From: Rhizophagus irregularis
Taxonomy: Eukaryota; Glomeromycota; Glomeromycetes; Glomerales; Glomeraceae
NCBI RefSeq assembly: GCF_026210795.1
Contig: NC_089452.1
Coordinates: 1,860,001 to 1,924,000 of the forward strand
DNA: 64,000 nt
Direction of reading: 5' to 3'
Positions 5,536-64,000 of the stretch are shown here, piece by piece; within the stretch, counting starts at the first letter, position 1; the number at the start of each line of letters is the position of its first letter. The notes below the pieces were generated by a model. It made no database searches. It worked only from the letters and a program-made list of their open reading frames with translations, and had not been told where the DNA came from. Both the position numbers and the translations under genes were made by a program.

Positions 5536-8500
5536 ATGGCTTGTAGTAACAATAAAGGTAATAATAATATATAGCAATACAATTAGAATTCTAAAATTTT
5601 AAATAAATTTGCAATATAATAAAACTAGTTTCCAGTAGTATTGAAAAATTTGAAACAAGTAGCACTGAGATTTCTAAAGGTATATTGAACAAGCTGATAT
5701 TAAATTTTGTTTGTAAATAATTTAAATACTATATATAATTTACCTTATATAATACACAAATATAATTTTAACTATCTATATTATGTAAATAATTTAGCTC
5801 GTAAGTTAATAAGTTATCTTATAATTGAATAATAATGGAATTACTTATTATTTTATTATATTTCATGTAACTCAATATTCATCTAATGATAATAATACTA
5901 TAGTTGGTAAGTTATCACTTTAGGTCTTTACTTTATTTATTTTATAACATTCAAATAATCAAATTCTTTATTTAAATAACTATTTAATAATTAATTATAT
6001 TACAGATGGTAAGTTACAATACATATACTATATTTATTTGTTTAATATTTTATATAATTCAACTAATTATATTCTTAATTTAAATAACTAGATTGTAAGT
6101 AATATATATAATTTATTACAGTAAATACTTTCTTATATTATTTTTATATCTAACTAATTAATAATTAATTAATAATAATACAGGGTGTAAGTTACTGTAT
6201 ATGATATCTATATTTATATTATTTATATAATTTAAACTAACTAATTTCTTATTTAAAAAATGGTTTATAATTTCTTTTAGTTGGTAAGTTATAAGTTATT
6301 TATTTAATTATATTATTGCTGATTGTTATAATATTTACATAATTTAAACTATCTAATTTCTTTATTTAATAGATTGTAAGTTACAAGTTATTTATTTATT
6401 CTATTATTGCTTTTTGTTATAATATTTACATATAATTTAAACTATCTAATTTCTTTATTTAAAAAATTATTAAATATAATATAGGGAGTAAGTTATAAGT
6501 TATTTATTTAATTCTATTATTACTTATTGTTATAATATTTACATATAATTTAAACTATCTAATTTCTTTATTTAAAAAATTATTTGTAATTTTTTTTAGT
6601 TAGTAAGTTATAAGTTATTTATTTAATTCTATTATTGCGTATTATTATAATATTTACATATAATTTAAACTATCTAATTTCTTTATTTAAAAAATTATTA
6701 AATAATATAGATAGTAAGTTATTTATATAATTCTATTATTGCTTATTGTTATATATTTACATATAATTTAAACTATCTTATTTCTTTATTTAAAAAATTA
6801 TTAAACATAATATAGGGAGTAAGTTATAAGTTAATTATTTAATTCTATTATTACTTATTGTTATAATATTTACATATAATGAATTACTTTATTTAAAAAA
6901 TTATTAAATAATATAGATAGTAAGTAATTTATTTAATTCTATTATTATAATACTTATATATAATTTAAACTATCTAATTTTTTTTATTAATAGATCGTAA
7001 GTTATAAGTTATTTATTTTAATTCTATTATTGCTTATTGTTATAATATTTACATATAATTTAATCTATCTAATTTCTTTATTTAAAAAATTATTTGTAAT
7101 TTCTTTTAGTTGGTAAGTTATAAGTTATTTATTTAATTCTATTATTACTTATTATTATAATATTTACATATAATTTAAACTATCTAATTTCTTTATTTAT
7201 TTAATAGATCGTAAGTTATAAGTTATTTATTTAATTCTATTATTGCTTATTGTTATAATATTTACATATAATTTAAACTATCTAATTTCTTTATTTATTT
7301 AATAGATCGTAAGTTATAAGTTATTTATTTAATTCTATTATTACTTATTATTATAATATTTACATATATTTTAAACTATCTTATTTCTTTATTTAAAAAA
7401 TTATTAAATATAATATAGGGAGTAAGTCATTTATTTAATTCTATTATTGCTTATTTTATAATATTTACATATAATTTAAACTATCTAATTTCTTTATTTA
7501 AAAAATTATTTTATAGATTGTAAGTTATTTACTTAATTCTATTATTACTTATTGTATAATATTTACATATAATTTAAACTATCTAATTTCTTTATTTAAA
7601 AAATTATTTTATAGATTGTAAGTTATTTACTTAATTCTATTATTACTTATTGTTATAATATTTACATATAATTAATTATTTTATTTAAAAAATTATTAAA
7701 TATAATATAGCTCGTAAGTTATTTATTTTAATTCTATTATTGCTTTTTATTATAATATTTACATACAATTTAAACTATCTAATTTCTCTATTCAAAAAAT
7801 TATTAAATATAATATAGCTCGTAAGTTATTTATTTTAATTCTATTATTGCTTTTTATTATAATATTTTATATTTACATATAATTTAAACTATCAAATTTC
7901 TTTATTTAAAAAATTATTTGTAATTTCTTTTAGTTCGTAAGTTATAAGTTATTTATTTAATTCTATTATTACTTATTATTATAATATTTACATATAATTT
8001 AAACTATCTAATTTCTTTATTTATTTAATAGAGCGTAAGTTATAAGTTATTTATTTAATTCTATTATTACTTATTATTATAATATTTACATATAATTTAA
8101 ACTATCTAATTTCTTTATTTATTTAATAGAGCGTAAGTTATAAGTTATTTATTTAATTCTATTATTGCTTATTGTTATAATATTTACATATAATATAAAC
8201 TATCTAATTTCTTTATTTAAAAAATTATTAAATAATATAGAGAGTAAGTTATTTATTTAATTGCTTATTTTTATAATATTTACATATAACTTAAACTATC
8301 TAATTTTTTTATTTAAAAAATTATTAAATATAATATAGTTCGTAAGTTATTTATTTAATTATTGCTTTTTGTTATAATATTTACATATAATTTAAACTAT
8401 CTAATTTCTTTATTTAAAAAATTATTTGTAATTTCTTTTAGTTGGTAAGTTATAGGTTATTTATTTAATTCTATTATTACTTATTATTATAATATTTACA

Positions 8501-10832
8501 TATAATTTAAACTATCTAATTTCTTTATTTAAAAAATTATTAAATATAATATAGGGAGTAAGTTATTTATTTAATTCTATTATTGCTTATTGTTATAATA
8601 TTTACATATAATTTAAACTGTCAAATTTCTTTATTTATTTAATAGATTGTAGGTTATTTATTTAATTCTATTATTGCTTATTGTTATAATATTTACATAT
8701 AATTTAATCTATCTAATTTCTTTATTTAATAATATAGCTGGTAAGTTATTTATTTAATTCTATTATTGCTTATTATTATAATATTTACATATAATATAAA
8801 CTATCTAATTTCTTTATTTAAAAAATTTATTAAATAATATAGAGAGTAAGTTATTTATTTAATTGCTTATTTTTATAATATTTACATATAATTTAAACTA
8901 TCTAATTTTTTTATTTAAATAATTATTTGTCATTTCTTTTAGTTGGTAAGTTATAAGTTATTTATTTAATTCTATCATTATTTATATAATTTAAACTAAT
9001 AAAATCTTTATTTAAAAAATATTATAATTTAGTTTGTAAGTATCTATTGTTATATATTTTGTATAATATTTATTTTTAATTAAATTTTTTCATTTAAAAT
9101 ATCTATTTCTTTAGTTGGTAAGTTGTAAATTATAGGTTATTATATGTATTTATCAAAAAACTAAGACTTATATAATTTCTATTTAAATTTTAGAGTAAGT
9201 AATAATTATTTTAGTGTAAATTATAATACAATCTATAATATAATTTTAATTATTTAAATTTATAGATTTGGGAAAAGTGGAAATACAATTATAGATGATT
9301 TTATTCTTAAAAAAAGATTAAGATGGATTCCTTATAACAAATTTAAAAATGTTGAATATCTTAATGAAGGAGGATTTGGCATTATATACAAAGCTACTTG
9401 GTTAATAAAGAATTATAAACATAGAGATGTAATTCTTAAATGTCACAAGAATTTAAATGAAAATTTAGATGAATTTTTGAAAGAAGTATGACATATTGAT
9501 AGTATATATTATTTTTTTATTTTTATAATTTATATTAATAAATTATCATTATTCTTTTGTAGTGGGAATATCATATGAAGTGTTTAGTTTCATCTTCTGC
9601 TATTATTGAATTTTATGGATTTACAAAAGATCCAAATACTTCAAAATATATGGTAGTAATGGATTATGCAAATAAAGGTAATTTGAGAGAAAATTTAACA
9701 AGAATAGTCAAAAATAATTGGAATCAAAAATTACTTATGTTGTATAAGATGATTTCTGGACTTAAAAGGATACATAATCAAAAGCTTACTCATTGTGATT
9801 TTCATGATGGCAATATTTTAAATCATAATGAGAGTGTAATTTATATTAGTGATTTAGGATTATGCCAACCTGTAAAATCGGGTTTGAAAAAGTATGATAT
9901 TTATGGTGTTATACCATTTATGGCTCCTGAAGTTTTAAGAGGCAAACCTTATACTCCAGCTAGTGATATATATAGTTTTGCTATGATTATGTGGGAATTT
10001 ACATCAGGAATACCACCATTTAATAATAGAGCACATGATCTTCATCTTAGTTTAAGTATTTGTAAAGGTGAACGTCCTGAAATTATTGAAAATACTCCAC
10101 AACGTTATGTAGATTTAATGAAAAAATGTTGGAATGAAGATCCATTAAAAAGACCATCTACATCAGAAGTAATAGATGCTTTTGTTAGTTGGATTTTCCG
10201 TCCTCGTAATAATGAATTTAATGAAGAATTAAAAAACAACATTATGGAATTTATAAATGCACCAATTGGGCAGCTTGCTACTAAATCTCATCCTAAAGCA
10301 TGTTTTACAAGTCGCTTACTTGATTTTACTAGTAAAAAATTAAATGAAATTCTTGAAAGTGAAAATTTGGATAATTATTTAATTAAAGATTTGAAGTCAT
10401 TAGGTATACAATATAGTGCATATAAAATTTAATCTTGCAAATTATTTATGTGAAGATAATTTATTTACTTAATTATTTAGATGAAAATACTAGTGAAAAC
10501 TTGAATGAAATTCTTGAAAGCGAAGATTTACAAGCTAGTGTGAAAGTAAATGAAACATTAGTAAGTGAAAATTTGGATGATTATATAATTAAGGATTTGG
10601 AGTCATTAGGTATGTATTATGATATATAAAAAAAATTATATCTTATTAATCTTGCAAATTATTTATATGAAATTAATTTATTTATTTAATCGTTAAAACA
10701 GATGAGAATAATAGTAAAAAGTTGAATGAAATTCTTGAAAGTGAAGATTCACAAACTTATCATGCAAGCTATTCTTCTACTGTTATAACTGAAGATTTGG
10801 ATGATTGTATAATTAAAGATACAAGTAATTAG
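5536..10832 (+). CDS. TKL protein kinase with codon-sized microexons
   Basis: Proposed 41-exon gene encoding 498 residues. Exons are 5536-5557, 5629-5679, 34 triplet exons and one 1-nt exon between 5798 and 9194, then 9266-9485, 9563-10403, 10481-10609 and 10702-10832. Summed length is 1497 nt, exactly 499 codons. The kinase domain is clear: WIPY lead-in, glycine loop EGGFGIIYKA, lysine in VILKC, catalytic HCDFHDGN (Asp about 211, Arg replaced by Cys), DLG (Asp about 229) and APEVL. Probable cytoplasmic Ser/Thr/Tyr kinase; substrate unknown. The first 59 residues come from exon 1, exon 2 and the microexon array. All introns up to 9265 and those at the 3' end are phase 1; the 9486-9562 intron is phase 0. 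A simple caller would start at Met 9575 and lose the N-terminus, glycine loop and lysine. Skipping the 10404 intron would end the protein at 10432 instead. Confidence 0.75.
5680..9265 (+). repeat. Array of 36 introns separated by 3-nt exons
   Basis: Each unit (77-116 nt) starts GTAAGT (GTATAT in the first, GTAGGT once), has a branch-like TCTAAT 20-50 nt before its end, and ends TAG or CAG. Between acceptor and next donor there are exactly three bases, 34 times in a row. Triplet starts: CTC 5798, TTG 5904, ATG 6006, ATT 6092, GGT 6184, TTG 6281, ATT 6373, GGA 6485, TTA 6600, ATA 6711, GGA 6816, ATA 6917, ATC 6994, TTG 7110, ATC 7208, ATC 7306, GGA 7419, ATT 7517, ATT 7615, CTC 7711, CTC 7818, TTC 7934, AGC 8032, AGC 8130, AGA 8241, TTC 8339, TTG 8442, GGA 8555, ATT 8646, CTG 8738, AGA 8843, TTG 8943, TTT 9033, TTG 9115, then a single A at 9194. 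Units share a core around TATTTACATATAATTTAAAC. Indels occur throughout the introns but never in the triplets, apart from the final one. Confidence 0.85.
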
Positions 10833-11256
10833 GTATGTTGTATGTAATATAGTACTAAAGAAAAAACTAATTTTGCAAATTATTTATATGGATTAATTTT
10901 AATTTATTAATTATTTAGATATTGAAACAGATGAAACTAACTAATTATTAGAAGATTCATAGATTTTTTTAAGTGATATTTGACGTGATGTATTCAGCAA
11001 AAATTGTTTTTTATTTTATTTTTATATTTATTTAAACACTAAGACTAGAGTAGTAAAATATTTATAAGTTTCTTAGTTTGTAATTTAAATAATTCCTTTT
11101 TTTATAGCTCATCCAAGTATTATATTTCTTTATTTTTTTATTTTACTTAGAATTATTTAAACACTAAGGCTAGAGTAGTAATATTTTACAAGTTTCTTAG
11201 TTTGTAATTTAAATAAATCTTTTTTATAACTTTAAATTAATAATATTTTGCCATAC
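10434..11256 (+). repeat. Tandem 3' exon-intron modules and downstream direct repeat
   Basis: The last kinase exons are tandem copies of a module: an exon opening with phase-1 AT/GAx, the motif LNEILESE, and an end TCATTAG followed by GTATGT, each with a related intron (GCAAATTATTTATATG). Copies begin at about 10404, 10610 and 10833. The third exon has lost one base, turning its 3' end into an in-frame TAG at 10830-10832. A fourth, badly decayed exon starts at 10919. Further on, about 80 bp is duplicated at 11026-11107 and 11149-11229 (ACACTAAGACTAGAGTAGTA), possibly the 3' untranslated region. Confidence 0.65.
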
Positions 11257-11264
11257 ACCCCTAC

Positions 11265-11672
11265 TAGGGATGGCAACAGTCACGGTTATTAACCAGTCAT
11301 GACCAGTTATGACCGTGACCGATATCGGTCAGTCAAAGGCTTCTGACTGACCGTTTAACTGACCGGTTTGACTGACCGTTTGACTGACCATTTAACCGAC
11401 CATTTAACCGATTATTTAGCCATATTTATTCACTTAACACTTTTTTTACGAATTTAATCAATAAAAAAAGTTAAATAACGTTTTTTTTTTGATTAAATTA
11501 CACTTTTTAACGTTTTTTCTTGATTAAAATTTGTTAAAAAGAAAAAAGTGATCGGTTAAACGGTCGGTTAAACGGTCAGAAAAACGGTCAGCCAAAATGG
11601 TCGGTCGGTCAAAGACCCTTAACCGGTTATGACCGACCGATAACTGACCGTGACCGACCGTTGCCATCCCTA
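11265..11672. mobile_element. hAT-type MITE with 8-bp target duplication
   Basis: The element is 408 bp and its ends are inverted repeats beginning TAGGGATGGCAAC. It is flanked by perfect direct repeats ACCCCTAC at 11257-11264 and 11673-11680. Inside, the arms carry inverted iterations of GACCGTTTGACTGACC / GGTCGGTTAAACGGTC. Eight-base duplications with this type of end are the signature of the hAT superfamily. No transposase is encoded, so it is non-autonomous. Confidence 0.88.
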
Positions 11673-13766: not shown

Positions 13767-15179
13767 TTAAAACCATTCAAAATCTTTATAAGTACGTCCA
13801 TACCAATCATTATTATATTTTTTAACTATACCTTCTACTTTATATTTTTTAATTAGATCAATATATTTTTTCATATCACCATTATTTATACAATAATAAC
13901 TATTACTTAATTGTAATAACATAGGATTTCTACCTTTCCAATTATCAAAAAATAATTTTAATGATTCTAATTTAATTGGTTTACTAGAATTAAAATTAAA
14001 TTTAAATTTAAATAAACTTTTTGGTGATGAAGTAGTTAAAATTTCAAATAAATCATTCCAATAAAATATAGTATCTATATAATAATCAGTAAGAATATAT
14101 AATCCATTTAAATTTTGACATTCAATTAATAATTTTTCTAATTCAAATATATTATTATTTTTAAGTAATAATTTAAGATATTTTAATTTTGGACAATTTT
14201 GATATATAGCCTTAATAATTTTTTTATTATTAATATCATCATGATTTATATTATCTATTTTTATTTCAATAAGATATCCATTTGTATTCTTAATTAAATT
14301 TGTTAAATATTCAACTTGAATGTTACTAACTCTTAATATACGTAAAAATGGTAAAAATAAATTCCCCAAATCTTCCAAATTACAATTTTTATTACCATTT
14401 AATTCTAATTCTTTTAAATTTATAAGAGATGAAAGTATATTTGTGGTAGGAGGTGTAGTCATCTTAAAATATTGAATAGTATTAGAATGTTTATTCAATG
14501 AATTTTCAAGAATATTACAAAATGTTCCATCCATATTTTGAGAATAAGTTATAAATCGAATATCAAATAAATTTTTTTGAGATTCTATTAATTTAACGAT
14601 ACCATAATTATTATTATGTACATTAATGAATAATTCCAATTCTTTAATTGATTTACATATTTCTGTTAATCCAGATAAAACATTATCATTTATACTTGTA
14701 TTACAACGAAGAAATTTAAGTTCTGAAAAACAATGTTTTGCTCCAGGAATAAGATGTATTTGATTATCAAATTGATAAGGTATATAAAGATGAGTATATT
14801 TTGTATTTTCATTAATAAAAATTCCTAATATTTCATCTTTAAAAATTATCATTTCAGAATCTTCATTTATAGTATTAATTATTCTCCTAATTTCATATAA
14901 ATTTAAATGTCTACAATAACTAATATAATCAAATAAAGGTTTTTGATATGAATTTTTTATAATATTATAAGTTGAATTTAATGATAAATTTGTTGTTATA
15001 ACTTTTAATAATGATTTTTCATTTCCTTTCTTTAAATATTTCCATGGATCTTTCCACAAAATTGGAATAATTATTTCACTCCAAGTTTTATTAACTAAAA
15101 GACATGAATAAAGAGCTTTTTTATCATCTTGTAATTCATGCAATACCATATAAAAAACATCTCTGTTTAATTTTGACAT
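13767..15179 (-). CDS. F-box / leucine-rich-repeat protein
   Basis: Single-exon ORF of 470 residues. The N-terminus (LNRDVFYMVLHELQDDKKALYSCLLVNKTWSEIIIPILWKDPW, given here in essence, residues about 4-47) has the F-box shape: Leu-Pro-like helix, Leu-Val-Asn/Cys and Trp positions. It would bind Skp1 in an SCF ubiquitin ligase. The rest is a Leu/Ile/Asn-rich repeat region, with phrases such as LINLKELELNGN and CPKLKYLKLLLKN, expected to form a substrate-binding LRR solenoid. This family is hugely expanded in Rhizophagus. The start is the first Met in a clean frame, preceded by an A/T-only leader. The last 90 bp overlap an unsupported plus-strand ORF. Target unknown. A fragment of a related gene lies at 35.9 kb. 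Confidence 0.88.
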   Translation of the reverse strand: MSKLNRDVFYMVLHELQDDKKALYSCLLVNKTWSEIIIPILWKDPWKYLKKGNEKSLLKVITTNLSLNSTYNIIKNSYQKPLFDYISYCRHLNLYEIRRIINTINEDSEMIIFKDEILGIFINENTKYTHLYIPYQFDNQIHLIPGAKHCFSELKFLRCNTSINDNVLSGLTEICKSIKELELFINVHNNNYGIVKLIESQKNLFDIRFITYSQNMDGTFCNILENSLNKHSNTIQYFKMTTPPTTNILSSLINLKELELNGNKNCNLEDLGNLFLPFLRILRVSNIQVEYLTNLIKNTNGYLIEIKIDNINHDDINNKKIIKAIYQNCPKLKYLKLLLKNNNIFELEKLLIECQNLNGLYILTDYYIDTIFYWNDLFEILTTSSPKSLFKFKFNFNSSKPIKLESLKLFFDNWKGRNPMLLQLSNSYYCINNGDMKKYIDLIKKYKVEGIVKKYNNDWYGRTYKDFEWF

Positions 15180-36517: not shown

Positions 36518-39500
36518 CTAACTTATTTCACTTTTTTGTTGATTTAAAAGATTATCCAGATTTTTTTTAGCACCATTAATATCTTTTTGCATACCTTCAC
36601 CTTTTTCATATAATAATGCAAGACGTTTTTGTGCTTCAACATTCCCTCCTTGTGCAGCCATTTTATAGAAATTAATAGCTTCTTCTTTATTATTATCAAT
36701 TTCAATTCCATGTTCATAGATATAACCAAGTTTATATTGAGCATCCATAAATCCTAGATTAGCTGATTTTTTATAAAATTCGAATGCTCTAATTTCATTC
36801 TTATTAACACCTAGGCCTAATTCATAAAATTCACCTAATTTATATAATGCAATTTTATTATCATTTTCTGCTGCTTTATGGTACCAATAACAAACATTAT
36901 CTAATTCATTGATAGTATTCGTATCGTTACTAAGACCATTTTGTTCATTATTATTCTTTTTACCAGCTGCTTCATTATATAACTCAAAACCCTTTGCTTT
37001 ATTAACTTCAGTTCCAATTCCATTTACATAGCAATATCCGAGGTAAAATTTTACATTAAAATAACCATTTAGAGCAGACATTTTATAATATTCAAATGCT
37101 TTAATTTCGTCTTTTTCAACCCCAGTTCCTAATTCATAAGCTTCACCTAAATTGTATAATGCAATAGCTTTTCCATTTGTTGCTGCCATTTGATACCAAT
37201 AAAAGGCTTTTATTTGATCCTTTTTTACTCCCTGACCACAACTATATAAATAAGCAAGATTAACTTGTGCACCACCATCTCCTTCTTCAGCTGCTATACT
37301 ATAAAATTCAAATGCCTTTGTTTTATTAATTTCAGTACCGATTCCATAACCATAACAATATCCAAGTCGTAATTGGGCTTTTAAACATCCTTTTTCAGCC
37401 GATTTTTCATAGTATTCAAAAGCTTTAATTTCATTTTTTCCAACTCCTTCTCCAAATTCATAACATAAACCCAAATTATATTGTGCTACTTCATTTCCAT
37501 TTTCGGCAGCTTTATCATACCAATAAATAGCCTTTTCTAAGTTTTTTCCTGTTATCTCACCACATTCATACATTAATCCTAGATTAAATTGTGCGGTTAC
37601 ATGTCCGTTTTCTGCCGCCTTTTCATAAAATTCAAATGCCTTTGTTTTATCAATTTCAGTTCCAATTCCATAATAATAACTATTTCCAAGTTGAAATTGA
37701 GCATTTAAGCATTCTTTTTCAGCCGATTTTTCATAGTATTCAAAAGCTTTAATTTCATTTTTTTCAACTCCTTCTCCAAATTCATAACATAAACCCAAAT
37801 TATATTGTGCTACTTCATTTCCATTTTCGGCAGCTTTATCATACCAATAAATGGCCTTTTCTAAGTTTTTTCCTGTTACCTCACAACATTCATACATTAA
37901 TCCTAGATTAAGTTGTGCAACTATATGTCCATTTTCTGCTGCCTTTTCATAAAATTCAAATGCTTTTGTTTTGTCAATTTTAGTTCCAATTCCATAATAA
38001 TAACTATTTCCAAGTTGAAATTGAGCATTTAAATATTCTTTTTCGGCCGATTTTTTATAATATTTAAAGGCTTTAATATCATCTTTTTCAACCCCTTTCC
38101 CTAATCTGTAACATTGGCTCAAGTTGTACTGTGCTACTTCATATCCATTTTCTGCTGCTTTATTATACCAATAAACAGCTTTTCCTAAATTTTCTTCTGT
38201 TTCTTCACAATATTCATATAATAATCCAAGATTATTTTGAGCCACAGCATGTTCTTTTTCAGCTGCTTCTTCATATAATTCAATTGCCATTGTTTTATCA
38301 ATTTCAGTTCCAATTCCATTATCATAACAATATCCAAGTTGAAACTGAGCATCTAAATATCCTGATTCAGCTGATTGTTTATAATATTCAAAAGCTTTCA
38401 TTTCATCTTTTTCTACTCCTTTACCTAATTCATAGCATTGCCCCAAGTTATATTTTGCCATCTCATTTCCATTTTCAACTGCTTTATTATACCAATATAA
38501 AGCTTTTTCTAAGTTATTACCTGTTGCTTCTGTTGCCTCACCATATTCATATAATAATCCTAGATAAAATTGTGCAACTATATGTCCTTTTTCTGCTGCC
38601 TTTTCATAAAATTCAAGTGCCTTAGTTTTATTAATTTCAGTTCCAATTCCATTAAAATAACAGCATCCAAGTCTAAATTGTGCATCAAGGTGTTCTTTTG
38701 CAGCTGATATTTTATAATATTTAAAAGCCTCAATTTCATCCTTTTCAACTCCTTTTCCTATTTCATAACATTGTCCCAAGTTATAATTTGCTGCTTCTTC
38801 TCCCTTTTCAGCTGCTTTATTATACCAATAAATGGCTTTTTCTAAGTTTATTTCTGTTTCCACATCATATTCATACAATAATCCAAGACTATTTTGTGCC
38901 ATAGTATGTTCTTTTTCAGCTGCTTCTTTATATAATTCAATTGCTTTTGTTTTAATGATTTCAGTTCCAATTCCATTATAATAGCAATATCCGAGTTGAA
39001 ATTGAGCATCCAAATATCCTGATTCAGCTGATTTATTATAATATTCAAAAGCTTTAATTTCATCTTTTTCTACTCCTTTACCTAATTTATAACATTGTCC
39101 CAAGTTATAATTTGCTGCTGCTTCTCCTTTTCTAGCTGCTTTATTATACCAATAAATAGCTTTTTCTAAGTTTATTTCTGTTCCTATACCATATTCATAC
39201 AATAATCCAAGACTATTTTGTGCCATTATATGTTCTTTTTCAGCTGCTTCTTTATATAATTTGATTGCCTTTAATTTATTAATTTCAGTTCCAATTCCAT
39301 AGTAATAGCAAATTCCAAGCTGAAATTGAGCATTTAAATATCCTTTTTCAGCTGATTTTTTAAAATATCCAAAAGCTCTAATTTCATCTTTTTCAACTCC
39401 CTTTCCTAATCTATAAGATTGACCCAAGTTATATTGTGCTACCTCAAATTCATTTTCTGCTGCTTTATTATACCAATAAATGGCCATATTTAAATTTTTT

Positions 39501-41630
39501 TCTATTCCTTCACCATATTCATATAATGATCCAAGATGATTTTGTGCAATACAATGTCCTTTTTCAGCTGCTTCATTATATATCTCAAATGCTTTTGACT
39601 TATTAACTTTAGTTCCAACTCCTAAATAATAACATATAGCAAGTTGAAGATATCCATATTTGTCTTCTTTTTTGTATAATGTTGTATACATTCCAAATGC
39701 TTTATTTTCATTTTTTTCTACTCCTTTTCCAAGTTCATAACATTTTCCTAAGTGAAATAATGCAGTCTTATTGTTATTATTTGCTGATTTTTTATACCAA
39801 TAAAAAGCTTTATTTAGATCTATATCAGTTCCTATACCATATTCATAATAATCACCAAGACAAAGCTGTCCACAAATACTTTCATTATTTATAGCTTTAT
39901 TCATCCAATAAATTGCTAAATTATAATCAATTTCAGTTCCAATTCCATATCTATAAGATGTGCTTAAATACACTTGTGCAATATGATAATTGTCATTTGC
40001 TGCTTTTAAAAATAATTTAAGTGCCTTATCATCATTTTGTTCTTCTGAAATAAATTTATTAAAATAAAAAAATCCAAGAAAAAAAATATAAGGTGACTTT
40101 GTTTGGTTTTCTTTAAGCCATTCAAAAATAACATTTGAAGTTTGATTTGAAAGAAATATACAATGATTAATGAATAACTTTGTCTCATCAATATTATTTC
40201 CTTCATCTTGTGTTTTAATTAAAAGCATAATTAATTTATCAGTTAAAATATTTATGTTATCTGTTACATTAAATATTTCTGAAAATAATTTTTCTGCTTG
40301 ATTTAATATAATTGAGTTAATTTCATTATTTAAATGATCTAGCATCAATTTACTTAGATATAGTTCAGAATTATTACTTAACATATATTCTATAGAATTA
40401 TTACTAAGCATACATGCTAAATCAGATATAATTGATTGAGGATGATTCTCTTGTAATAATTCTGTTTTGATTTCCAATGAATTAATCTCATCATTATTTT
40501 CTCCAAAAATTACTTGTTTAAGAAATTTAACAACTTGATGAATAGTAGGACGGTTAGTTGGATCATCTTCCCAACATGCTAGAAAAATTAAATAAATTAG
40601 TGTTCTTTAATTAATAATATAATAACATGCATATGATAACTTAAATTTACCCTTATATAAATTACTATATTCAATAGGAGTATCCGGGACAATTTTTTCT
40701 CTTTGTCCTTTTATAATATTCATGATCAAATTTGCATCATATTCTACATTTTCAGCATAAAAAGGTCTATGTCCACTCGAAATTTGCCAAAGAAGAACTC
40801 CTACACTATAAACATCTGACTTTGCATTTAATTTATATGACTGGCTTTTATCTTTAATATTATTCAAATATTTTGGGTCGATATAAGGAACAACACCAAG
40901 AACATTTGTTGAATTGTATGATATATCAGTTATTTTTCTTGATAAACCAAAGTCCGCCAGCTTTATTTTATTTTGATGTACAAGTACATTTTGTGCATGC
41001 TATATTTGACAAAAATGCTAATTAATTTCATTAAATAATAATAAAAAACAATATTCAATAAATTATTTATTGCATTACCAAATCACAGTGAATAATTCCT
41101 TCGTTATTTAGACATTCTACAGCATTTGCAAGTTGGAGCGCTAATTGATATTTATCATTCCATTCAAGTTTATTAAAATTCTCTTTTAAATAGGATTGTA
41201 ATGATCCACAATCAGCATACTCCATAACCAATAAATATTTGTTTTCTAATCTTGAGATTCCGTAAAATCGAACAATATTTGAATGATAATCAACTTCGCG
41301 TTGCATTTTTATCTAATATTATAAATATAATAATAATATAATATTAGTAAGGACAAAACAAAAGACATTATTGTAATGTTTATAATAATAATTTACCTCA
41401 TTAACGATTTCTTCAATAGTTAAGTTAAATGGATATTTTAGAGCCATGACAGTATCAGAATCTTTACGATTTACACGAAAAACTTTTCCAAAAGATCCAT
41501 TATTTATTTCTTCTTTATTAGTGAATTCAGCATAATCATAATATTTAATATAATTTTCTGATATTGCTTTTTCTAACCAATCAGTATAAGTATCAGAAAC
41601 TTTTCCAGTTATTTCTGTCATGTTTTTCAA
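36518..41630 (-). CDS. TKL protein kinase fused to about 33 Sel1 repeats
   Basis: Four exons: 41630-41397, 41312-41079, 40999-40651 and 40578-36518, total 4878 nt, 1625 residues. Exon 1 has [19 protein letters not shown] and the glycine loop NNGSFGKVF with the lysine in MALKYP. Exon 2 ends at the catalytic loop HCDL, completed by HAQN in exon 3, followed by LADFGL and the P+1 region (PYIDPKYL). Exon 4 finishes the C-lobe ([15 protein letters not shown]) and carries the Sel1-like repeats, 36-residue helix pairs that serve as a protein-binding scaffold. Repeats run in sets of three (LGLLYEYG.., [17 protein letters not shown].., [14 protein letters not shown]..), roughly a 108-residue higher-order unit repeated many times, so unequal exchange is likely. 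Most probably a cytoplasmic signalling kinase with a large adaptor tail; partners unknown. Confidence 0.92.
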
Positions 41631-61680: not shown

Positions 61681-64000
61681 TTAGACATCTTTACCTAAAA
61701 AAAAAACACAAAAATATATTAAATATGAATAAAAACATAAAATTAATATGTAGGTTAAGTAATTATTTACCATTTTCATTAATATTATTAATATTTAATT
61801 GAGAAATATCAATTTGCAAAGATTCTATTTAGTAAATTAAAATTTTAGTATTATTATCTTATAATTTAAAATATTATAATGATACAAATTAATTGATACC
61901 TGAAAATTCTCCACTTATTATGTTATCAGTCTGTTTGTAATAATCATCAGAATTTTTTGGTTCAGGAAGATTATTAAAATTAAGTATTCTACTTGTATAA
62001 ATAGCTTCTGAATGTGTTTCATATGACATTCCTAAATTAGTTAAAGATATTATGTCATTTGATGAATTCTTATTTATTTCTTCTGCTTCTTTAATTTGCT
62101 TCTGCAATTCTACTGTTTGACTTTTACTTTTTTTATTTATCCATTCGTGTAAAATATCATAAATTTCTTCTGCTTGTGGTCGATTTAACGGATCTGCGTC
62201 CAAACATCTTTTAATTAAGTAAATAATTAGTTGAGGCACTTTAATATTAAACCTTGGCCTGAATCCTTTACAAATTTTTATTGCTAAATTTTCATCATGG
62301 CTAATGTCATGATATGGAGGTAATCCAGAAATTATTTCATACATAATTATACCAAAACTATAAATATCTGAAGCTTTTGTATAATTTTGTCGTCTTAAAA
62401 TTTCAGGAGCTATATAAGATAAAACACCATATATGTTATTTTTTGCACTTTCTAATGGATTACAATCTGCAGGTTTACATAATCCCATATCAGCTATCCA
62501 CATATTAAATAATGAAATTAGTATATTTCCACTATGTAAATCTCGATGAATAAATTCATTTTTGTGAATACAATCAAGTCCACATGCAAGTCCTAGTAAA
62601 TGATTAAGCTTGCTATTCCAATTTAATTCATTATGGTTTGTATCTAAGTAATTTCGTAAGCTTCCTCCCTCTGCATAATTTAAAACCATTATATAATCTT
62701 TTGTTTCTGGATTCTGAGTAATTCCATAGAACTTTATAATAAAATTTTTGAAATTATTAAATCTACTATGTAATGCAATCTATATATTAAAATATGTTAA
62801 TAAAAATTAAATTTTCAATTGAGAATAAATAGATGAAATTTATAGTACCTCATTCATAAATTCTAATGTAATGTTTCTTGAATTATTTAAACTTTTTAAA
62901 GCCACTAGCATATTTCGATATTTTCCATCATTCCAAATTGCTTTATATACTTTACCATATCCACCTTTTGCAATATATTTAATATCATAAAATCTATCAT
63001 AAGGTATCCATTCTAATGCTTCTCCTAAATCGTAATGAGCTAATAATTGAGTATCTTGAATAAATTTATCAATATTATTATTCCCACTAGTCCAATTTAT
63101 AAATTTCTTATGAAATTCACATATACCATCACATTTTTCACACAAATCACTTAAAATCATCATATAATTCTTTGTTTTTGGATCTTGAGTTATTCCATAA
63201 AATTCATAATTTCCATTAATCTACAAATGTACTAAAAAATTAGTAAAAATAACAAAACTAAAATTCTAAACTTTAATTAAATAATACCTTATTTGTAACT
63301 TCTAATTTAATATTATTCAGATTAATACGCTTCAGAGTTACAAACATATTTTGATCATATCTTTCCCAATTTTGATTATATATATCCCAATTATAAATAT
63401 ATCCATCAATCCAATTTGCTCTAAATACTCCAATTTTTTCATTATATTTAATATTACAAAGTCTATTATAAGGTATCCATTCTAATGCTTTTTTAGATAC
63501 TTCATATTTATCATGTGTTGATAGCTGAGTATCTTGAATAAACTCATCAATATCATCATTACCACTAGTCCAATTATCATATTGCATTACATATATAATC
63601 ACATTTTTTACATTTGTCACACAAAACAATCATATAATTTTTTGTTTGTGGATCTTGAGTTATTCCATAAAATTCATAATCACTTTTAATCTACAAATAT
63701 ATCAAATTAGTAAAAAAATATAGTAAAAGTTTAAAATCTTAAAAATTCATTAAGTATACCTTATTCATAGATTCTAATGTAATATTTTTTGGATTATTTA
63801 AGTTTTTCAAAGCTACTAACATGTTTTCATTAGATCTTACCCAATTTTCATTATCCCGTTCATAAATATATCCATCAATCCAATTTGCTCTAAATACTCC
63901 AATTTTTTCATTATATTTAATATTACAAAATCTATTATAAGGTATCCATTCTAATGCATTTACCCTATAATAATAAGTATGCTCTAATAGCTGAGTACCT
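61681..64000 (-). CDS. TKL kinase with tandem N-terminal exon modules (partial)
   Basis: Exons on the minus strand: 64000 (beyond window)-63760, 63690-63288, 63220-62849, 62779-61900, 61824-61771, 61694-61681. The first three are copies of one module: EFYGITQDPKTKNYM, a Cys-rich patch (CEKCDGIC), INWTSGN, IDKFIQDTQ, EWIPY and a glycine-loop-like end. Only the last copy has a good loop (AKGGYGKVYKA) and lysine (VALKSL). The C-lobe exon has HRDLHSGN, ADMGL (DFG position), YIAPEIL and the final helices. The last two exons give ESLQIDISQLNINNINENG and KDV. Module introns are phase 0, the C-terminal ones phase 1. Exon 63690-63288 is 403 nt and carries a frameshift before NWTSGN, so the gene is broken, or that exon is skipped (which would also break frame), or transcription starts in the last module. 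Confidence 0.75.

Follow-up and report, generated by a model that had tools for sequence, protein, structure and literature searches.

Arrays of predicted one-codon exons precede the kinase domain in a Rhizophagus irregularis gene family

Introduction

In this study, we describe a protein kinase gene of Rhizophagus irregularis which very probably carries 34 consecutive exons of three nucleotides (nt) and one exon of a single nucleotide, spliced constitutively one after the other, in an array whose units evolve by duplication. The gene lies in a window of 64,000 nt (contig NC_089452.1, positions 1,860,001 to 1,924,000), and its structure is predicted from sequence comparison. The N-terminal part of dozens of R. 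irregularis kinases appears to be built from one-codon exons, judging from related loci in the genome. If splicing proceeds as selection implies, 36 successive introns are removed for 103 nt of coding sequence. This would strain the usual idea of a minimum length for internal exons and offer a natural test bed for sequential splicing. Because the public protein models examined omit or misread the arrays, they leave invisible a hypervariable part of dozens of signalling proteins of R. irregularis, a soil fungus of plant roots and a model for arbuscular mycorrhiza. A preliminary description of this DNA knew of no described gene with such a run of codon-sized exons, and the open-licence literature, among the matches listed, likewise holds no report of one.

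Results

Architecture of the kinase gene

A pattern scan for acceptors and donors reveals 34 consecutive units of the form [TC]AG/NNN/GTARGT between positions 5798 and 9117, in the place, phase and number first described, and no match on the minus strand of the window. The donor is GTAAGT in 33 of the 34 units and GTAGGT in one (8649). In front of the GTAAGT sites of the array the spacer measures 3 nt in 33 cases and 1 nt in one case; a weak site overlapping one unit (6921, TAA before GTAATT) was excluded from the unit list. Introns of the gene are 71-118 nt long, and the 77-116 nt of the preliminary description holds as the spacing of the units, not as intron length.

The triplet array and the 1-nt exon sit between ordinary 5' exons and a protein kinase exon (Table 1). 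In a Pfam search made with the window gene only, the kinase domain scores 144.5 bits for PF07714 (cut-off 23.1) and 130.3 for PF00069 (cut-off 31.7). Joined together, the tiny exons amount to 103 nt (34 x 3 + 1), and the phase-1 frame runs open through them into the kinase, as had been proposed. The phase-1 start reads MACSNNKVSSSIEKFETSSTEISK-ALDDWFDWINRNNLDHRNYSPLQQQILGNSEIVF-E-FGKSGN, with ALDDWFDWINR and NYSPLQQQILGNSEIVFEFGK as predicted tryptic peptides. It had also been held that the two other frames stop or fail to join. Phase 0 is indeed not joined to exon 2 in frame, but its triplets are free of stops as well, so that the window gene alone does not settle the phase. Downstream, positions 10430-10913 hold repeats of about 221 bp, apparently bearing repeated C-terminal exons of the kinase gene. 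A plasmid similarity search gave no match.

A family of arrays across the genome

The genome was searched over 146.7 Mb on 32 contigs; an assembly of isolate DAOM197198 with 32 scaffolds, 146.77 Mb and 2,533 kinases has been published, in a paper that also describes Nanopore RNA-Seq reads (PMC10234402). A strict pattern of a single unit type matches at 1,824 sites across the genome, and its reversed control at none. Given this result and the lack of sites on the minus strand of the window, the unit arrays are not due to chance. The strict pattern recovers 424 of the 886 core units in 26 loci, and extrapolation from this recovery indicates that the genome may contain about 3,800 units.

These 26 loci comprise the window gene and 25 further loci. 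Nineteen were picked by kinase match alone, mostly from the best-scoring matches, and the sample favours close relatives; six came from clusters of the strict pattern, five of them also at kinase matches and one (L042) without a kinase match in the list. An array is present in all 25. Of 933 GTAAGT sites in the 26 arrays, 886 have a spacer of 3 nt, 25 one of 1 nt and ten one of 0, 2, 6 or 10 nt; for the other twelve there is no acceptor within 15 nt. By these 886 of 933 spacers the predicted exons are symmetric micro-exons. Of 885 units, 728 have a branch-like CTAAY motif on their 5' side and 29 the reversed motif, and with a GT donor consensus, this branch-like site and an AG acceptor the predicted introns are of U2 type by sequence.

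Both ends of the arrays are recognisable, and the middle is hypervariable. Exon 1 has 13, 16 or 22 nt in the 12 phase-1 start models, always 1 mod 3, and the length of exon 2 is a multiple of 3 nt in 13 of 13 start models. Eleven of the 12 phase-1 models read A-[LF]-[DNT]-[DN]-[WY], and L040 reads V-S-D-W. At the other end, 24 of 26 arrays have CTT or TTT as the penultimate unit and 20 of 26 have TTG as the last; CTT-TTG-A closes 15 of the 26, with variants in the others. The phenylalanine at the last junction is kept in 24 of 26 arrays, twice via TCG in place of TTG, which is a change at the phase-1 wobble base. In the 14 arrays with the start in hand there are 19 to 79 units; arrays without a long interval have 23 (L035), 28 (L040), 34 (window) and 47 (L042). 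At G000:C11:882045-895256, unit junctions extend across 13 kb, possibly as one giant array or as several genes.

Stop codons are avoided between neighbouring units

A codon read in phase 1 spans an intron, so that a stop can arise only where two neighbouring units join. The pair tests cover pairs spaced by 55 to 135 nt and leave aside any site that follows another by under 45 nt; the tests of skipping joins and of seven fresh arrays also leave out runs of under three units. In 19 arrays, none of 668 phase-1 junctions forms a stop, as against a mean of 17.1 and a minimum of 6 in 5,000 shuffles of unit order within arrays. Repeated pairs do not account for the absence of stops, because the distinct pairs of each array also give 0 of 482 (15.4 expected). 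Adjacent joins produce 0 stops in 666 (15.3 expected), joins that skip one unit 14 in 614 (14.5 expected), joins that skip two 12 in 562 (13.4 expected) and those that skip three 19 in 518. For the seven fresh arrays the counts are 0 of 210 at adjacent joins (3.4 expected; 24 of 2,000 shuffles were equally low), 5 of 196 when one unit is skipped (3.3 expected) and 4 of 182 at the next lag. Taking all 26 arrays together, 883 neighbouring pairs contain no phase-1 stop.

The classes of unit end and start with at least 2.5 expected occurrences in the 883 pairs number 32, and four of them are empty, namely the three stop classes and C/CG. In a pattern-based count across the genome, T/AG makes up 1 of 142 junctions of any base with AG, as against 34.3 expected (T-ending 320/1,325; Fisher p = 3.5e-17, a value too small owing to unit duplication). 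Stops in phase 2 are not avoided in the array set (113 vs 87 expected).

From this selection we infer that splicing most likely joins each unit to its neighbour, includes every unit and yields a phase-1 reading. Of 13 start models, 12 lead from exons 1 and 2 into the array in phase 1. The early proposal that all units are spliced, with codons formed across introns, is upheld by the junction counts and their restriction to neighbours, and the start models, the constancy of the 3-nt exon and the minimum of variation at the wobble base (see below) lend it further support.

It is unlikely that the exons, being real, serve chiefly a combinatorial purpose, with isoforms skipping different 3-nt exons. 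The sequence directly provides for this, since any skip of a symmetric 3-nt unit keeps the frame, and the micro-exon genes (MEGs) of Schistosoma mansoni vary by exon skipping (PMC4015677). However, skipping joins form stops at chance rate in both array sets; isoforms made in this way would be unprotected, and the units appear to be included in order.

A predicted 1-nt exon would restore the kinase frame

An array read in phase 1 must gain 1 mod 3 nt to reach the frame of the kinase, which the 1-nt exon fits. As a sequence pattern, its site with flanks has 72 matches genome-wide (71 A and 1 T). At every one of the 72 the single base is followed by an unbroken GTAAG; this is supportive only, because a preference for GTAAG is built into the search pattern. 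A 5-nt exon AGTAA, the alternative, has lost the GT of its donor at two of the 72 sites (C6:471730 and C19:3472395), and in L056 this alternative donor reads GTCATA.

Triplets diverge between identical flanks

Among units flanked by the same 80 nt on either side, 27 of 118 comparisons and 8 of 59 groups show a different triplet, vs 0/84, 1/82, 0/78, 0/77 and 3/76 (0-1 of 61-64 groups) for control windows in the introns. At 60-nt flanks the triplet differs in 36 of 148 comparisons vs 0-3 of 91-121 for controls. Each group was scored against its first member, and the comparisons are non-independent as units duplicate in blocks (L039, L034). Once the flanks are shortened to 20-40 nt, variation is seen in some control windows as well (at offsets 25, 35 and -40, in up to 93 of 322), which counts among the results against the reading, and the case for diversification therefore rests on the 60- and 80-nt comparisons. 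In L050, CTC, GGT and TTC occur between identical flanks of 160 nt. Variation per base (80-nt flanks) is 0.127, 0.034 and 0.195 along the triplet and lowest at the second base, the phase-1 wobble position.

Divergence of triplets above that of their flanks, and least at the wobble base, suggests diversifying evolution. It would reflect either very strong selection for change or an exchange of whole codons between units. Replacement of whole triplets may be due to diversifying selection of great strength, to short-patch exchange of codons or to an exon-aimed mutator. Tentatively, one might picture the array as a codon-by-codon diversification device in which duplication, and exchange among units and genes, homogenise the introns, and triplets are replaced whole. 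Such a device, if true, would provide the symbiont with a rapidly changing repertoire of kinase N-termini.

Public protein models and alternative readings

Several results weigh against a phase-1 array with all units included. In a word-based search of a collection of 5.8 billion proteins, with the N-termini of the window gene and L035 and the kinase start of the window gene as queries, no phase-1 array was seen in the proteins matched. Public models bypass the array, begin within it or bear phase-0-like strings ending L-S-K-FGKSGN. Models with stretches at least 97% identical to the examined loci mostly have their start in the kinase exon, at its beginning or shortly ahead of it, and at least one, P0037, begins in a translated intron. 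Four proteins were matched by the phase-1 N-terminus of L035: one contains just exon 2, two join exon 2 to sequence beyond the array, and P0027 is phase-0-like; the phase-1 array is in none of the four. Within the array data, only 25 of 35 acceptors of the window have the CTAAY motif, L039 contains one stop across a 193-nt interval in which a unit was probably missed, the class C/CG is empty without being a stop (4.4 expected), and there is the single T/AG junction in the genome. The start models, obtained for 13 of 26 loci and in phase 0 for one of them (L038), are not a blind test, since the script behind them gave phase 1 the first rank and discarded any model containing a stop. Finally, phase-0 stops are also rare: 722 units contain a single TGA, where independent base frequencies predict 16, a cruder expectation than that for phase 1, and the 224 units of seven new loci contain none.

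The public models bear first on the possibility that the array is a minisatellite within one large intron, with exon 2 joined to position 9295 or the transcript starting downstream, and the triplets left untranslated. Two paralogue models, P0062 and P0046, join exon 2 in frame at a 9295-type acceptor (DDFI) and skip the array, by eye the window gene would also stay in frame across such a join, and many other public models start near the kinase exon. We nevertheless consider this improbable: a non-coding minisatellite puts no coding constraint on its spacer, whereas the array tests find such constraint. Untranslated triplets would not avoid stops between neighbours only, the upkeep of a 3-nt spacer would be unexpected, and triplets would not be expected to diverge faster than their flanks with a minimum at the wobble base.

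Very improbable, in turn, is a phase-0 reading, in which each triplet is a whole codon and AGTAA (donor GTAATA) takes the place of A as the final tiny exon. Strings resembling it occur in P0001, P0011, P0018, P0027, P0034, P0059 and R. diaphanus P0010, none matched triplet by triplet, and the scarcity of phase-0 stops would fit it too. P0001, from R. irregularis, shows 273 identical residues out of 275 in the kinase, and its N-terminal string resembles a different phase-0 array. P0034 is 98-99% identical to the kinase start of L052, yet its N-terminus mismatches the L052 units; the model or the assemblies differ. Phase 0 was first judged probable and was dropped on the results for junction stops, start phase and 1-nt exon: exons 1 and 2 are out of frame with it in 12 of 13 start models, it predicts no protection of joins and so no stop avoidance confined to adjacent phase-1 joins, and the GT that it needs is lost at two sites at which GTAAG is intact, though the pattern favours the latter. 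L036, moreover, contains a TGA unit. A longer last exon from CTAAG/ACTTAT, which some public models appear to have, was rejected since its length differs mod 3 between genes (29 nt in the window, 36 nt in L034, by eye).

Table 1. Positions in the window of the predicted exons of the kinase gene and of a candidate alternative acceptor
Feature	Position	Strand	Remarks
exon 1	5536..5557	+	ATG start, 22 nt, MACSNNK + 1 nt, ends in phase 1
exon 2	5629..5679	+	51 nt, ..SSSIEKFETSSTEISK + 1 nt, phase 1 at end
3-nt exon 1 CTC	5798..5800	+	splice pattern, start models
3-nt exon 2 TTG	5904..5906	+	splice pattern, start models
3-nt exon 3 ATG	6006..6008	+	splice pattern, start models
3-nt exon 4 ATT	6092..6094	+	splice pattern, start models
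3-nt exon 5 GGT	6184..6186	+	splice pattern, start models
3-nt exon 6 TTG	6281..6283	+	splice pattern
3-nt exon 7 ATT	6373..6375	+	splice pattern
3-nt exon 8 GGA	6485..6487	+	splice pattern
3-nt exon 9 TTA	6600..6602	+	splice pattern
3-nt exon 10 ATA	6711..6713	+	splice pattern
3-nt exon 11 GGA	6816..6818	+	splice pattern
3-nt exon 12 ATA	6917..6919	+	splice pattern
3-nt exon 13 ATC	6994..6996	+	splice pattern
3-nt exon 14 TTG	7110..7112	+	splice pattern
3-nt exon 15 ATC	7208..7210	+	splice pattern
3-nt exon 16 ATC	7306..7308	+	splice pattern
3-nt exon 17 GGA	7419..7421	+	splice pattern
3-nt exon 18 ATT	7517..7519	+	splice pattern
3-nt exon 19 ATT	7615..7617	+	splice pattern
3-nt exon 20 CTC	7711..7713	+	splice pattern
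3-nt exon 21 CTC	7818..7820	+	splice pattern
3-nt exon 22 TTC	7934..7936	+	splice pattern
3-nt exon 23 AGC	8032..8034	+	splice pattern
3-nt exon 24 AGC	8130..8132	+	splice pattern
3-nt exon 25 AGA	8241..8243	+	splice pattern
3-nt exon 26 TTC	8339..8341	+	splice pattern
3-nt exon 27 TTG	8442..8444	+	splice pattern
3-nt exon 28 GGA	8555..8557	+	splice pattern
3-nt exon 29 ATT	8646..8648	+	splice pattern, donor GTAGGT
3-nt exon 30 CTG	8738..8740	+	splice pattern
3-nt exon 31 AGA	8843..8845	+	splice pattern
3-nt exon 32 TTG	8943..8945	+	splice pattern
3-nt exon 33 TTT	9033..9035	+	splice pattern
3-nt exon 34 TTG	9115..9117	+	splice pattern
1-nt exon A	9194..9194	+	puts array in kinase frame, G/A/A = Glu
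first kinase exon	9266..9485	+	FGKSGNTIIDDFI...FLKE; kinase family match
main kinase exon	9563..10403	+	ends inferred from splice-site-like sequence; read-through stop at 10432
further C-terminal exons	~10481-10609 and from 10702	+	by eye
candidate alternative acceptor ATTATAG/ATGATT	9295..9300	+	inside first kinase exon

Other features of the window

On the minus strand, the window contains an open reading frame (ORF) of 1319 amino acids (aa) at 36518-40477, which we take to be made of Sel1-like repeats, an open 470-aa ORF at 13767-15179, presumably F-box-like, and a second kinase ORF of 266 aa at 61889-62689. Short repeat blocks of the GACCG/CGGTC type in both orientations lie at 11270-11670 and are perhaps a small mobile element.

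Discussion

Proposed mechanism

We propose that each array unit of about 100 nt consists of an intron, with GTAAGT, in most cases a CTAAY branch-like site and TAG, and a 3-nt exon. The triplets and the 1-nt exon would link the upstream exons to the kinase, each codon being formed by the last base of one exon and the first two of the next. Since a 3-nt exon is too short for simultaneous binding of both splice sites, splicing would follow intron definition and probably advance in steps in the 5' to 3' direction. Arrays would grow and shrink through duplication of intron-plus-triplet blocks, while the triplets would diverge under diversifying selection; a unit of this kind would allow the protein to change by one residue without loss of frame. 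The predicted product has a variable segment of about 20-80 residues, preceded by a start of the A-L-D-D-W type and followed by the kinase junction F-E-FGKSGN. Our guess is that this N-terminal segment is a recognition or targeting part of the kinase.

Comparison with known systems

Exons of schistosome MEGs measure 6-36 nt. Recursive splice sites consist of an acceptor adjoining a donor, and introner elements are repeated, similar introns inserted into existing coding sequence. Unlike the arrays, recursive sites leave no exon, and introners would not yield a 3-nt step repeated dozens of times.

In size, the exons match known cases, as isolated 3-nt exons are described for mouse Ncam and Drosophila TnT (PMC8042270) and 1-nt exons for Arabidopsis APC11 and Fusarium CYP621A, the latter supported by transcripts (PMC12940212). 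In these reports, as far as their relevant passages go, such exons are single, not dozens in a row, and not part of a fast-evolving array. The bicycle and megacycle genes of aphids, with more than 100 micro-exons in megacycle (PMC9168663), resemble the arrays in their many micro-exons of one shared phase and in fast divergence; the passages of that report bearing on gene structure describe neither arrays of 3-nt exons nor duplication of an intron together with a triplet.

Closest in outline are the MEGs, which, like the R. irregularis arrays, form a gene family with many very small symmetric exons and variable proteins (PMC4015677). Variation by micro-exon skipping, the signature of MEGs, is absent from the arrays by the indirect evidence of skip-join stops at chance rate, and for this reason we do not file the arrays as MEGs. 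MEGs have larger exons, vary by skipping exons and mostly encode a signal peptide, and the passages of the MEG report that cover their structure describe no run of dozens of 3-nt exons, whereas the R. irregularis arrays have predicted exons of 3 nt, protect the order of adjacent units and belong to kinases.

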